From contig JAKAOK010000005.1 in assembly GCA_021812245.1 (NCBI GenBank), positions 1 to 64,000 of the forward strand: 64,000 nt of DNA, written 5' to 3'. This DNA comes from a bacterium. Its GTDB lineage: Bacteria; SZUA-79; Acidulodesulfobacterales; Acidulodesulfobacteraceae. A program made the position numbers and the translations under genes. Positions within the stretch are counted from its first letter, which is position 1. Each line of letters opens with the position of its first letter. Positions 2,940 through 20,222 of the stretch are shown here, one piece after another. The notes under the pieces are model-generated. The model saw only the letters and a program-made list of their open reading frames with translations. It ran no database searches and was not told the DNA's origin.

Positions 2940-3229
2940 ATTGCCGACAGAAACCCTTGAAACTGCTATAAAGTTAAATAAATTCTGGATTCCCGCTTTA
3001 GCGATATTTCCGTCCAAGTTTATCAAAACATGTCTTTGATGCAGGCGGGAATCCATAATTAAAATTTTCTACCGGCAATTTTGGGATTACCGACGGTCAT
3101 AGTTTAATTATATCGCATAATAGGAGTTTTTCTTGATGAAGAGATAAACTTAAAAGGCAAAGAGAAGGCTTGCGTCCGCCATTAATCTTAATATGTAAGA
3201 TGATTAAGAGGATTGGGCGGGCGGCTTAT
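2940..3229. repeat. Intergenic REP-like repeat
   Basis: No gene is seen. Bases of about 2985-3060 hold a GGATTCCCGCTTTAGCGATATTTCCGTC-type module, with a CAAAACATGTCTTTGATG inner palindrome and a closing GCGGGAATCCA. It is flanked by a short inverted pair, CCTAAAATTGCCG / CGGCAATTTTGGG. It is a degenerate member of the same modular repeat set as the MITE-A interiors. The remaining 150 bp are unremarkable. Confidence 0.65.
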
Positions 3230-3865
3230 TTAATCGACCTTAATAATATAGGGCTTTACTTTGAATTTCTTTGATATAATATTTTCTATGGATTTAGCTC
3301 CTTTAGCCGTAGAAAATTTTCCGACCCTGACCTGCTGGTAAACAGCTTTTGCAGTCTTACCGGAAACGCTGATAGGAACTATATATGCAAAAAATCCCAT
3401 AGAATTAAGCTTGTCCGCCAGAGTTTTAGCCTGCGCATAATTTTTAAGAGCAGCCACTTGAATAGTATAATAAATTTTAGAATTAAAAGTCTTTTTTGTT
3501 ATATATTTATATACGTACACAGGTTTTTTTACGTAAACTATTTTAGTTTTTACTTCAGGTTTTGCAGCAGGTTTATTTTCGGGTTTTCTAACAATTTCCG
3601 TTTTTCCCTCTTTTATTTTACCTTTTTTTAAAGAGGCTAATTTTGAAATGGGAGCAAATTTTATATTATCTGCGGAAACGGGGTTTTGTTCTTCGGAGTT
3701 TTGTCCGGTCTTCGGCGTATTTTTATTTTTTAAGGCAGATTCTTTTATCGTTCCTTCTTTTGAGTTTTTAGGAGACAATTTTTTGCCTATAAAGAGCCCG
3801 AATACAAAAACTATAAATATTATTACCAGAAATACGGCAACGGCGGTAATCTTATCTTTTTTCAA
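3230..3865 (-). CDS. SPOR-domain membrane protein
   Basis: A 211-residue protein with one N-terminal membrane segment (about residues 7-27), a Lys/Pro-rich periplasmic linker and a C-terminal SPOR domain (YYTIQVAALKNYAQAKTLADKL ... VRVGKFSTAKGA). SPOR domains bind denuded septal peptidoglycan, so the protein probably acts at the division site or in cell-wall remodelling. It has the DedD/FtsN-like architecture, but the sequence does not decide which. It is one base from the upstream small Cys-rich gene, so the two are co-transcribed. Confidence 0.85.
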   Translation of the reverse strand: MKKDKITAVAVFLVIIFIVFVFGLFIGKKLSPKNSKEGTIKESALKNKNTPKTGQNSEEQNPVSADNIKFAPISKLASLKKGKIKEGKTEIVRKPENKPAAKPEVKTKIVYVKKPVYVYKYITKKTFNSKIYYTIQVAALKNYAQAKTLADKLNSMGFFAYIVPISVSGKTAKAVYQQVRVGKFSTAKGAKSIENIISKKFKVKPYIIKVD

Positions 3866-3866
3866 A

Positions 3867-4052
3867 TTAGTTTATCCTGTCGCTTTTAAAATTATTTATA
3901 AAGTGCATAAGTTCTTCAATGCCGGATATAGTAATCGAAACGTCTCTGGAAAAATCCGGACAATTGAAAATCTCGATTCCGGAAATGCTGTACTTTTTTT
4001 TGCAGACGCCCCTCCAACTGCATACAGCGCACAAAACCACATTCTCATCCAT
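3867..4052 (-). CDS. Small Cys-rich protein upstream of SPOR gene
   Basis: A 61-residue protein with four cysteines spaced C8-x2-C11-x5-C17 and C31, in the context CAVCSWRGVCKKKYS ... NCPDFSRDVSI. This resembles a small family of conserved hypothetical proteins I recall from deltaproteobacteria, with a C-x2-C-W-R-x2-C core. The four Cys could bind a metal or an Fe-S cluster. It ends one base before the SPOR gene, which argues that it is real. Function unknown. Confidence 0.6.
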   Translation of the reverse strand: MDENVVLCAVCSWRGVCKKKYSISGIEIFNCPDFSRDVSITISGIEELMHFINNFKSDRIN

Positions 4053-4316
4053 ATAATTTTATATCCTCTTTCCCGAATATTATTTAATATTAAAAATAAT
4101 TAAAAAATTTTAACTTTATTATACCATATACATTAATAAAAATAAATCCAAATAATATACCCTAATCCCGATTTAGAAATTTATATATTATATATCTGCA
4201 TAAAAATTTAAAAACTTAACTTATTTATTTTATATTGTTTAGTGTGGTAAAATAATACTGACGAAAAACAATAAGCCGCAGTTTAAATATTGCGGCTATA
4301 CTTGCGGGGAAGATAA
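4053..4316. other. Divergent intergenic region with a solo MITE-A end
   Basis: A 264-bp AT-rich spacer between the divergent Cys-rich and RNase E/G genes. Bases 4160-4184 (CCCTAATCCCGATTTAGAAA) match one terminus of the MITE-A family with no matching right end, so this is a solo end or a decayed copy. Promoters for both genes must lie here, but I cannot pick a convincing pair of boxes. Confidence 0.5.
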
Positions 4317-15024: not shown

Positions 15025-15534
15025 TTATTTTAAACCGTTCAGAGCTTTCAGCACGTCTTCGTAATCCGGTTCGTTCGTTATTTCGGGAACCAGCTGTTTA
15101 TAAATAATTTTGCCTTCTTTGTCCGCGATAAAAACGGCTCTTGCGGTGAGCCCTTTTAATGCGCCTTCGCCGATAATAACGCCGTATTTTTCCATATCTT
15201 TGTACCTGAAATCGGACGCCGCGGTAATATTTTTTATGCCGTAGCTTTCGCAGAACCTGTCCTGCGCAAAAGGCATGTCCATAGATATGACGTTGACATC
15301 TATATTGGTATATTTAGCAAGCATCTCGTTAAATTTTTTGGTTTCCATTTCGCAGACCGAAGTATCGAGAGAAGGCAGGGTAATTATTAACTGGATTTTT
15401 TCTTTTTTGCCGCCGACTTTTTTTTCTTTTAAATCCTTAGCGACTACTATGGCTTCCGGAGCGGTGTCTCCCAAGTTCAGCGCCGGTCCCGTCAAAGATG
15501 CGGAATTTCCTTTTATTAAAATAGTTTCAGCCAT
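15025..15534 (-). CDS. tpx: Thiol peroxidase Tpx
   Basis: Atypical 2-Cys peroxiredoxin, 169 residues. Peroxidatic Cys61 (LPSLDTSVCEMETKKF) and resolving Cys95 (MPFAQDRFCESYGI) are at the same positions as in E. coli Tpx. It reduces peroxides with thioredoxin. It is the last gene after iscU-tusA-iscS-like, 32 nt from the latter, which ties it to Fe-S/sulfur handling under oxidative stress. Confidence 0.95.
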   Translation of the reverse strand: MAETILIKGNSASLTGPALNLGDTAPEAIVVAKDLKEKKVGGKKEKIQLIITLPSLDTSVCEMETKKFNEMLAKYTNIDVNVISMDMPFAQDRFCESYGIKNITAASDFRYKDMEKYGVIIGEGALKGLTARAVFIADKEGKIIYKQLVPEITNEPDYEDVLKALNGLK

Positions 15535-15566: not shown

Positions 15567-16751
15567 TTATTTTTTATTTCTTTTCATAACTTCTTCGTAG
15601 AGAGGGGACATCTCCCTCAATTTTTTAACTACGGCCGGAAGTTCTTTGACAAAATATTCCGCATCGTCGAGCGAGTTGTCTTCGCCGAGCGATATCAGCA
15701 GCGAACCCTGCGCAAGCGCCGGGTCAACTCCTATCGCGTTTAATACGTGAGACGACTTTAATATTTTAGACGTGCAGGCAGAGCCGCTTGCAACCATAAT
15801 TCCAATATTGTTAAGCCACATAAGCATAGACTCCCCCTCGATGTATTTTACGACAAAGTTAAGATTGTTGGGGAGCCTCTTTTCAGGATGTCCGTTTAAA
15901 TAAACCTCGTCGAGACCGCCAAGCACTCCGTCGGTAATCGCTTTTTGAATAGGCAGAAGATGCGCCGTCCTGTCTTTCAATTCTTTTTTGGCAAGTTCGC
16001 AGGCAACACCCGCTCCGGCTATCGCCGGAATGTTTTCCGTCCCGGCCCTTCTTCCGAACTCCTGAATACCGCCGTCGATAAGGGGCATTATGCGTATCCC
16101 TTTTTTAAGGTAAAAAAGCCCTACGCCTTTTGGGCCGTAAAACCTGTGCGGAGCGGCGGAAAGCATATCGACCCCAAGTTCTTTGACGTCCGTTTCTATG
16201 AAGCCGCAGGACGTGTTTGCATCCGTATGCATATAAGCCGCCGAATTTTCATGGACGATTTTTGAAATTTCTTTAATATCCTGAATAGTGCCGATTTCGT
16301 TTGAAGCCTGAGTAATGCTGGCGAGTATGGTATCTTTTCTTAAAGCGTTTTTAACGTCCTGCGGGTCAACCGAACCGTATTTATCGACGGGAACCTCGCT
16401 GAATTCAAAACCCAGTTTCGCTAAAGATTTAACGGAATTTAAAACGCTGAAATGCTCTATTTTAGAAACGATGATATGCCTGCCTTTGTCCATTCTCGCA
16501 AAAGCCGTTCCTTTTATCGCAATGTTGTTTGCTTCCGAACCGCTTCCCGTAAATATAACTTCCGTGCTCGCCGCATTTAAAAGCTCAGCCGCCCGAAGTC
16601 TGGCTTTGTCCAAGGCTTCCCTCGGTTCGTCGCCGAGCGTATGAATGCTTTGAGGATTTCCGTATTCCGCTATAAAATAAGGCTCCATGGCGTCTTTTAC
16701 TTCCCGCCTCATCTTCGTCGCCGCAAAGTGGTCGAAATTAATTATTTTCAA
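15567..16751 (-). CDS. IscS/NifS-like protein lacking PLP lysine
   Basis: Fold-type I aminotransferase class V protein of cysteine-desulfurase family, 394 residues. Conserved features remain: His100 (KIEHFSVL), Asp177 (HTDA), the GPKGVG loop and catalytic Cys326 (ASGSACTS). Three active-site residues are not as expected. The Schiff-base Lys of the S-x-H-K motif is Arg203 (APHRFYGPKG). The Gln after the Asp is Thr180 (DANT). The substrate-carboxylate Arg of the R-x-S-L-G motif is Leu352 (LLISLG). PLP-dependent desulfuration is therefore doubtful. Archaeoglobus IscS also lacks the lysine, a known precedent. It may act as a scaffold or Cys-ligand partner for IscU. Codon 203 reads AGG. Confidence 0.85.
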   Translation of the reverse strand: MKIINFDHFAATKMRREVKDAMEPYFIAEYGNPQSIHTLGDEPREALDKARLRAAELLNAASTEVIFTGSGSEANNIAIKGTAFARMDKGRHIIVSKIEHFSVLNSVKSLAKLGFEFSEVPVDKYGSVDPQDVKNALRKDTILASITQASNEIGTIQDIKEISKIVHENSAAYMHTDANTSCGFIETDVKELGVDMLSAAPHRFYGPKGVGLFYLKKGIRIMPLIDGGIQEFGRRAGTENIPAIAGAGVACELAKKELKDRTAHLLPIQKAITDGVLGGLDEVYLNGHPEKRLPNNLNFVVKYIEGESMLMWLNNIGIMVASGSACTSKILKSSHVLNAIGVDPALAQGSLLISLGEDNSLDDAEYFVKELPAVVKKLREMSPLYEEVMKRNKK

Positions 16752-16774: not shown

Positions 16775-16860
16775 TTAATTGTCATTCCCGCGAAAGCGAT
16801 ATTTCCGTCCACGGCTTATCGAAGCACGCCTTCGATGTGGACGGAAATGCCAGTATTTAT
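16775..16860. repeat. REP-type repeat between tusA and iscS-like gene
   Basis: TTGTCATTCCCGCGAAAGCG followed by an inverted pair ATTTCCGTCCAC / GTGGACGGAAAT around TTATCGAAGCACGCC. This is the same interior module as in MITE-A copies but without their outer ends. It lies within the operon's intergenic leader and would form an RNA hairpin. Confidence 0.7.
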
Positions 16861-16896: not shown

Positions 16897-17121
16897 TTAT
16901 TTTTTCACGTAAACTATGTATTCGGGCAGATTTATTTCATAAGACATAAATTCATGTCCGGTTTTTTTGCAGTAGCTTTTTAAATCTTCTACGATGCCCT
17001 CGTCAGATGCCGTTACTTTTAATACCGAGCCGTCCGGAATTTTTTTAAATTCTTCCGCAACTTCCATTATCGGCATAGGACAAGATAATCCAAAAGTATC
17101 GAGTTCGTAATCGTAATTCAT
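16897..17121 (-). CDS. tusA: TusA-family sulfur carrier
   Basis: A 74-residue small protein with the family motif LSCPMPIMEV; the Cys in CPxP carries persulfide sulfur. It relays sulfur for tRNA thiolation, molybdenum cofactor synthesis or, in sulfur-metabolising bacteria, dissimilatory sulfur transfer. Here it sits between iscU and the IscS-like gene, so it may supply or accept sulfur in Fe-S assembly. Confidence 0.9.
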   Translation of the reverse strand: MNYDYELDTFGLSCPMPIMEVAEEFKKIPDGSVLKVTASDEGIVEDLKSYCKKTGHEFMSYEINLPEYIVYVKK

Positions 17122-17200: not shown

Positions 17201-17647
17201 TTAAGCATGCTCCAGCAAATCATGTTCGTCTTCGTCGTGTTCCGGTGTTTCCACCCTGCCTATGGGACCTTTGCCCGCTTTTCTCGCCCTGTAATCTTCA
17301 ATGGCAAGATGAAGGGCGTCGGCGGCAAGGTTAGAACAGTGCATCTTTACCGGAGGCAGTCCGTCTAAAGCCTCGGCGACCACCCCGTTAGAAACTTTTT
17401 CCGCTTCTTCGAGGGTCTTCCCTTTGACGAGTTCGGTTACCATGGAGCTTGTGGCTATAGCGGCGCCGCAGCCGAATGTTTTAAACTTTACGTCTTCGAT
17501 TTTATCGTCTTTAACTTTGATATATATTTTCATTATATCGCCGCAGGTCGGGTTTCCTAGTTCTCCTACCCCGTCCGCGTTTTCTATCTCACCCACATTC
17601 CTTGGATGCTGAAAGTGGTCCATTACTTTTTCCGAATATACCGGCAT
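17201..17647 (-). CDS. iscU: Fe-S cluster scaffold IscU
   Basis: Scaffold on which [2Fe-2S] clusters are built. Cluster ligands Cys35 (GNPTCGD, with Asp37), Cys60 (FGCGAAIA) and Cys103 (KMHCSNLA) are all present, and the chaperone-binding LPPVK motif is intact. The 148-residue length includes an extra acidic/His-rich C-terminal tail (HDEDEHDLLEHA). It is the first gene of the operon and lies behind an IscR-type site. Confidence 0.96.
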   Translation of the reverse strand: MPVYSEKVMDHFQHPRNVGEIENADGVGELGNPTCGDIMKIYIKVKDDKIEDVKFKTFGCGAAIATSSMVTELVKGKTLEEAEKVSNGVVAEALDGLPPVKMHCSNLAADALHLAIEDYRARKAGKGPIGRVETPEHDEDEHDLLEHA

Positions 17648-19490: not shown

Positions 19491-20222
19491 TTAAAATAAT
19501 GTGGTTGGCATTGTTACTTTAACAGGTCGCCCTTTTCCCCGTTTTTCTATTCTTCTTCCGATTATCTGCTCTACAGAATCAGTAAAATAGCTGTTTCCCG
19601 TAAGCTGGCCTCGATTTAAAACTCCTCTCAGAAAATCTAATTCGCCCGATGGTATATTTTCCTGAAGGAACTTTGAGTATTTTTCGCGCCTTATTTCTTC
19701 CTTTTCGCTCAAACCAAGAAACATTGGATCTAAATCTATATCCATATCCCTGTCGGACTGCTCTTTTACTTTGTCGCTGCTCATTCTTGTAATATAACTT
19801 GACCACCTATAATCCGACGGTTTTTCTACAATATTTGCCCGAACTGGATTTAATTCGATATAACGGCAACAGGCTAATAAATATTGGTCTCTTTGCACAG
19901 GGCTTGATTTATACCTGCTTTCCCACAATGTTCCGCTTCTGCCTTCTAATATATTAAAATAACGGGTGGTTCGTCCGGCAAGTGTTTTCATAAATACCCA
20001 CAGATTTGAAACTTCATCTCCGGGCTGTAGAAGTAAATGAATATGATTAGTCATAAGGCAATAAGCAAATACTTTTATTTCAAATTTAATTTTTAATTCC
20101 TGTATATTTTTAAGATAATTATTAAAATCTTCGTCTTGCGCAAATATTACCTGCCTGTTATGTCCTCGTTGAACTATGTGGTGAGGGCAATTTGGCAGCA
20201 GGATTCTTTTAGTTCTCGGCAT
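19491..20222 (-). CDS. REP-associated tyrosine transposase (RAYT)
   Basis: A 243-residue single-strand transposase of the IS200-like Y1 superfamily. N-terminal MPRTKRILLPN and VQRGHNRQVIF are RAYT hallmarks. The metal-binding HxH is His60/His62 (TNHIHLLL) and the likely catalytic Tyr is Tyr88 (TRYFN). Downstream ELNPVRANIVEKPSDYRWSSY is also typical. RAYTs are single-copy housekeeping-like enzymes linked to REP palindromes rather than classic IS elements. No flanking IS ends are seen. Both sides carry the C-type repeat ending (AAATCTGTCCCC or AAATCTGACACC). It is intact. Confidence 0.93.
   Translation of the reverse strand: MPRTKRILLPNCPHHIVQRGHNRQVIFAQDEDFNNYLKNIQELKIKFEIKVFAYCLMTNHIHLLLQPGDEVSNLWVFMKTLAGRTTRYFNILEGRSGTLWESRYKSSPVQRDQYLLACCRYIELNPVRANIVEKPSDYRWSSYITRMSSDKVKEQSDRDMDIDLDPMFLGLSEKEEIRREKYSKFLQENIPSGELDFLRGVLNRGQLTGNSYFTDSVEQIIGRRIEKRGKGRPVKVTMPTTLF

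Follow-up and report, generated by a model that had tools for sequence, protein, structure and literature searches.

A Lys-less IscS homolog encoded beside TusA and IscU in Candidatus Acidulodesulfobacterales and its distribution in bacteria and archaea

In Candidatus Acidulodesulfobacterales (SZUA-79), a lineage from acid mine drainage whose members were reported to be facultative anaerobes carrying dsrEFH and dsrAB of the reductive type (PMC6776010), the scaffold protein IscU is encoded beside an IscS-like protein that lacks the Schiff-base Lys and the substrate-binding Arg of cysteine desulfurases and keeps their catalytic Cys. The most probable role of this putatively PLP-dead IscS, to which we assign a probability of roughly 60%, would be to dock IscU and to relay sulfur to it through the Cys, with TusA persulfide or sulfide as the supply. 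The gene lies in a 64,000-nucleotide stretch of DNA (contig JAKAOK010000005.1, positions 1-64,000), hereafter referred to as the window.

Residues lost and retained in the IscS homolog

ORF reading and alignment placed the gene at positions 15567-16751 on the minus strand of the window, with a TTG start codon, 394 codons and no internal stop. The product matched Pfam PF00266 (E 1.1e-64), and a PDB search with it returned desulfurase chains with E-values down to 6e-114. Judged by its sequence, the protein is a full-length homolog of the IscS/NifS type (PLP fold type I). It scored below the curated cut-off of every listed NCBIfam desulfurase family, with 433 against a cut-off of 531 for TIGR03402 and 347 against 643 for TIGR02006. 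The closest solved sequence match was a group of 406-residue chains named cysteine desulfurase (PDB 9wep, 9wer, 9wew, 9wf8, 9wfb, 9wfe and 9wfy), which are seemingly variants of one protein.

Residue equivalences were taken from an alignment with E. coli K-12 IscS. The alignment and the codons bore out the three substitutions that the initial annotation had noted: Arg203 (codon AGG, 16143-16145) replaces the Schiff-base Lys (E. coli K206), Thr180 (ACG, 16212-16214) replaces a Gln (Q183), and Leu352 (CTG, 15696-15698) replaces the Arg that binds the substrate carboxylate (R354), all on the minus strand. The catalytic loop Cys (C328) is kept as Cys326 (TGC, 15774-15776, minus strand). The Gln had been described as the position stacking on PLP, which was not borne out; from general knowledge of the fold, we take the His (E. 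coli H104, here His100) to stack on PLP and the Gln to contact the ring oxygen. His100 and Asp177 (E. coli D180) are both retained in the Lys-less protein, as are Ser72 and Thr238 of the cofactor site. An AlphaFold2 model built from 12 close orthologues was poor (mean pLDDT 49.5) and was set aside.

We also compared Lys-less with Lys-bearing IscS proteins as classes. In the alignment, Lys and Arg were both absent from 29/29 Lys-less rows and present in 86/86 Lys-bearing rows; as the class was defined by the Lys, with one protein (L101, described below) set aside, the informative part of this contrast is the Arg. The catalytic loop Cys was present in all 29 Lys-less rows. Ten columns whose conservation reaches 90% or more among Lys-bearing IscS proteins, including E. 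coli N155, Q183, H205, K206 and R354, are lost in the Lys-less class, which retains C328, H104, D180, E311, mostly T243, and the SP motif near the C-terminus. This comparison points to loss of the reaction site alongside retention of the Cys loop and of positions that belong to the fold. Loss of desulfurase chemistry in the Lys-less protein is thus predicted with strong support. We infer inactivity from the residue losses together with the case of Archaeoglobus fulgidus IscS (AfIscS), which was reported to be devoid of desulfurase activity and whose Cys ligates the cluster on IscU (PMC7585200, PMC8617193). AfIscS has Asp, Ala and Leu at the Lys, Gln and Arg positions (DATASVG, SSNDIYG and GTLLLTLG).

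Conservation and gene context within the phylum

The phylum was sampled with 30 genomes from six genera. Full-length orthologues were present in 27 of them, counting the query itself, with identities of 79-97%. One further genome contained an orthologue fragment at a contig edge, and no match was found in G022 (91% complete) and G023 (59% complete). Arg203, Leu352 and Cys326 were invariant in all 27 orthologues across the six genera, and position 180 was occupied by Thr, Ala or Ser, and never by Gln. The initial annotation had proposed an examination of sister genomes and had argued from the coordinated losses against a sequencing error, and the agreement among the orthologues confirmed this view. 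The invariant residues in 27 independent assemblies, a median dN/dS of 0.042 (118 orthologue pairs with dS of 0.05-2) and synonymous codon changes at the substituted positions, with Leu352 encoded by five different codons and Arg203 by AGA and AGG, rule out chance or error, and a pseudogene or a fault in sequencing or assembly is a negligible explanation. Purifying selection retains the Lys-less protein.

Two genes upstream on the same minus strand are of particular relevance. A tusA-like sulfurtransferase gene (16897-17121) encodes 74 residues with a CPMP motif (Pfam PF01206, E 1.9e-20), and the iscU scaffold gene (17201-17647) encodes 148 residues in which three Cys motifs and LPPVK are kept (PF01592, E 5.9e-52). 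Downstream is a gene for a tpx-like peroxiredoxin (15025-15534, minus strand; PF08534), whose linkage is confined to several loci of the same genus and for which we claim no part in the mechanism. The window also contains a REP-like element, TGTCATTCCCGCGAAAGCG, in nine copies per 64 kb (allowing up to three mismatches), where none is expected by chance. One copy is situated between tusA and the Lys-less iscS (16780-16798), and an ORF at 19491-20222 resembles a REP-associated transposase, named from its sequence only.

On contigs of sufficient length, IscU and TusA genes adjoin the Lys-less gene across the phylum with few exceptions. The order is iscU-tusA-iscS, often followed by tpx, in most of the phylum loci near that of the window, and iscS-iscU-tusA in more distant ones. 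The three Cys motifs are retained in the IscU partners. The persistence of the linkage despite rearranged gene order points to a joint function of the Lys-less IscS, IscU and TusA. A contig end assigned to the Micrarchaeota bin KMA_Bin02 (L060) is 90% identical to the window protein and carries tusA upstream; this is probably a mis-binned Acidulodesulfobacterales contig.

Concerning other Fe-S proteins, a second, canonical desulfurase, which the initial annotation had suggested looking for, was found on a separate contig. It carries the Lys, Gln, Arg and Cys, and its gene is part of the series cysE-iscR-iscS-mnmA, in which the gene names derive from sequence. Orthologues of this IscS occur in other genomes of the phylum, with mnmA adjoining in four of the five examined. 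On the other hand, the iscU gene at the Lys-less locus was the only NifU_N match in the source genome, and in nine phylum genomes from six genera, several of them 97-100% complete, there was exactly one NifU_N scaffold gene per genome, adjoining the Lys-less gene. A SufB/D match was found in 0/30 phylum genomes, and the control genomes were 14/14 positive. Taken together, the only recognised scaffold of the phylum adjoins an IscS without the standard catalytic residues; scaffolds of another type, or genes missed in incomplete assemblies, may exist in addition.

Lys-less IscS proteins beyond the phylum

In a domain-wide sample of bacteria, at least 20 of the 261 genomes from outside the phylum encoded Lys-less IscS proteins, and an archaeal sample contained them in several archaea. 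These counts are lower bounds, as they cover the fetched part of listed matches that extend to E 1e-90 for bacteria and 1e-75 for archaea. The Lys is replaced by Gln, Ser, Arg, Asp, Thr, His, Val, Gly or Asn, and in all Lys-less proteins that were read the Arg is also gone (Leu, Val, Ile, Thr or Gly in its place) and the Cys is kept. Our literature search, among open-access papers, found no account of such proteins as a class in bacteria, of their linkage to TusA or DsrE, or of their location next to a phylum's sole recognised scaffold; already known are the Lys-less IscS in Archaeoglobus and, by sequence, IscS1 of Methanosarcina acetivorans.

In a quick maximum likelihood tree from a free search, the Lys-less proteins fell into two clades, of which one contained AfIscS and the other the window protein. 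With the trait columns masked, a tree uniting all Lys-less rows and L101 was 27 lnL units above the free quick search (p-AU 0.786). A single family including AfIscS is therefore the better-scoring tree and is not rejected, which falls short of proof; two origins are also possible. L101 (genome G126, 2989-4158) keeps the Lys and Gln, has Leu for the substrate Arg and branches within the Lys-less clade. Its gene lies about 1.35 kb from TusA, and it is possibly an intermediate or a reversion. Several archaea (L157, L159, L183 and L185, in G654, G592, G614 and G674, respectively) encode tandem pairs in which the Gln is replaced by Ile in a Lys-bearing IscS and the Arg by Leu in the adjacent Lys-less one, which may reflect a division of labour.

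Gene neighbourhoods were compared at loci flanked on each side by at least about 1.25 kb of sequence, with TusA scored when on the same strand within 1 kb. TusA was found at 11/20 Lys-less loci against 1/71 Lys-bearing loci (p = 4e-8), and the sole Lys-bearing locus with TusA adjoins a Lys-less gene. An unbiased clustering of neighbours at 32 Lys-less loci (six of them representatives of the phylum) and 84 Lys-bearing loci ranked TusA first (21/32 against 1/84) and a DsrE-type protein second (9/32 against 0/84; Pfam PF13686/PF02635). The set around the window gene had been described as otherwise standard, but TusA beside IscS marks the Lys-less class and not ordinary IscS loci. Outside the phylum, TusA is missing within 1 kb at roughly half of the Lys-less loci, and some are without an adjacent IscU. 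Preferential adjacency of the Lys-less IscS to IscU was examined and rejected (13/20 against 41/71), IscU accompanying both classes. The TusA-binding patch known from E. coli (W45, E49 and D52) displayed no special conservation: Lys-less proteins retain it no more than Lys-bearing ones do.

SUF was rarer in the genomes carrying the Lys-less gene, with 2/20 against 157/241 other genomes (p = 1.4e-6) and against 34/72 genomes with a Lys-bearing IscS of similar score (p = 0.004); this scarcity may partly reflect anaerobic life. The neighbourhood and SUF tests, as well as the dsrA test given below, treat genomes as independent. As the tree offers only two to three independent contrasts, a phylogenetic sign test of Lys loss against TusA is unable to reach significance, and the TusA association is most appropriately viewed as a stable feature of a single deep clade.

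Sulfur supply to IscU and known systems

If the Lys-less IscS does not desulfurate cysteine, its sulfur probably comes from another carrier. We propose that the catalytically dead protein, devoid of the Schiff-base Lys and the Arg for the substrate carboxylate, would be retained as a docking platform for IscU, with Cys326 on the loop presumed to act as a sulfur relay or a transient cluster ligand. The neighbouring TusA would deliver the sulfur as persulfide, having itself been charged either by sulfane carriers of the DsrE type or by the canonical IscS encoded next to mnmA; free sulfide is a possible alternative source. It is the gene linkage that favours TusA as the presumed donor. In E. coli, IscS docks both TusA and IscU, with the Cys loop approximately 4 Å from the TusA Cys (PMC2854127). 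Points that count against a relay from TusA include the competition of the two partners for IscS in E. coli (PMC2854127) and the lack of any better conservation, in the Lys-less class, of the surface to which TusA binds in E. coli. The canonical IscS of the genome could also supply IscU alone. On a broader scale we would put forward tentatively, at somewhat less than even odds, that a "desulfurase-independent ISC" is widespread in bacteria and archaea, in which sulfur would pass from DsrE/TusA to the Cys of a PLP-dead IscS and on to IscU, the reverse of the usual direction from IscS to TusA, as the main Fe-S route in the absence of SUF.

A different source of sulfur has to be considered on the basis of Archaeoglobus IscS, namely free sulfide, in which case the dead IscS would do no more than contribute a Cys that transiently ligates the cluster on IscU, and TusA would be incidental or part of another pathway. 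The Cys of AfIscS, a protein with the same triple loss, ligates the IscU cluster (PMC7585200); in E. coli without IscS, sulfide feeds IscU and rescues the cells (PMC13015791); the minimal system SMS runs on sulfide (PMC12192291); and sulfate reduction has been reported for the phylum itself (PMC6776010). The initial annotation had likewise suggested that a sulfide-rich lifestyle could make desulfuration unnecessary. The distribution does not bear this out. A dsrA match was present in 3/20 Lys-less carriers outside the phylum against 19/241 other genomes (p = 0.23), and five genomes within the phylum without a dsrA match (G002-G006) still carry the Lys-less gene, so that sulfate reduction was rejected as the determinant, with the reservation that dsrA represents one sulfide source only. 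Supply by sulfide also leaves the strong linkage to TusA and DsrE unexplained, and we regard it as unlikely.

The presence in this genome and its relatives of a canonical desulfurase that has all four residues (Lys, Gln, Arg and Cys) raises the question of whether the enzyme beside mnmA hands persulfide directly to IscU, with the dead IscS acting as a regulator, stabiliser or chaperone of IscU that transfers no sulfur. A mere stabiliser would not need the Cys, yet this residue never varies in the phylum and is present in every Lys-less row. Moreover, the canonical gene was not seen next to an iscU, the sole NifU_N gene being at the Lys-less locus in each phylum genome tested, and the AfIscS-like genome G679 has no match to a canonical desulfurase. 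An accessory role without sulfur transfer is thus hard to maintain, and we hold it to be decidedly improbable.

Retention of His100, Asp177, Ser72 and Thr238 would be consistent with a protein that still uses PLP, either without the usual Lys or through another one, and releases the sulfur of cysteine by an altered mechanism. The Schiff-base Lys and the substrate Arg are both gone, further pocket residues drift in the class, and AfIscS with the identical losses was reported to be inactive (PMC7585200, PMC8617193), all of which make such cryptic activity very hard to credit.

Returning to the docking and relay platform, the TusA/DsrE link bears on a question raised by the archaeal protein. The structure of AfIscS and IscU with a shared cluster was questioned because AfIscS is not a functional desulfurase, and the source of sulfur was left open (PMC8617193). 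The link provides a concrete candidate for this missing source and small proteins on which to test it. Dead IscS proteins span bacteria and archaea, frequently have TusA and carriers of the DsrE type as neighbours, and within one whole phylum are encoded next to its sole recognised scaffold for Fe-S assembly; for the Lys-less class, annotation as "cysteine desulfurase" is misleading.

Among known systems, the window protein most resembles A. fulgidus IscS (PDB 4eb5, 4eb7 and 4hvk; D199K mutant 4r5f), a full-length homolog with the triple loss and the catalytic Cys kept, and the Lys-less iscS clusters with iscU as do genes for proteins of the AfIscS type. It differs in having Arg and Thr as replacements of the Lys and Gln, and in its occurrence in a bacterial acid-mine lineage. 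The precedent of AfIscS for an IscS that serves IscU without desulfuration, pointed out in the initial annotation, is supported by its Asp, Ala and Leu and is compatible with one common clade for the two proteins. A close relative of AfIscS (L168) is encoded in an overlapping tusA-iscS-iscU cluster in the 2.2-Mb genome of the archaeon G679, in which a canonical desulfurase was looked for and not found. That genome has SufB/D, whereas the window organism has one canonical IscS and a single IscU, and gave no SufB/D match. IscS1 of M. acetivorans is also a Lys-less homolog encoded with IscU and proposed to be AfIscS-like, but M. acetivorans, unlike the window organism, has two further iscSU clusters and SUF (PMC7585200).

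With canonical IscS/NifS (E. coli IscS; TIGR03402, TIGR02006), the window protein shares full-length homology, an IscU neighbour, the Cys loop and the C-terminal SP motif, and TusA and IscU, both neighbours in the window, are known partners of E. coli IscS; unlike these enzymes, it is devoid of the Schiff-base Lys, the Gln and the substrate Arg, and stays under the listed NCBIfam cut-offs. Finally, the window genes resemble the minimal Fe-S systems MIS and SMS in forming a small, scaffold-centred set and, like SMS, would include no active desulfurase of their own; MIS, in contrast, was described with a cysteine desulfurase, and SMS uses SufBC and sulfide in place of IscU and a dead IscS (PMC12192291).
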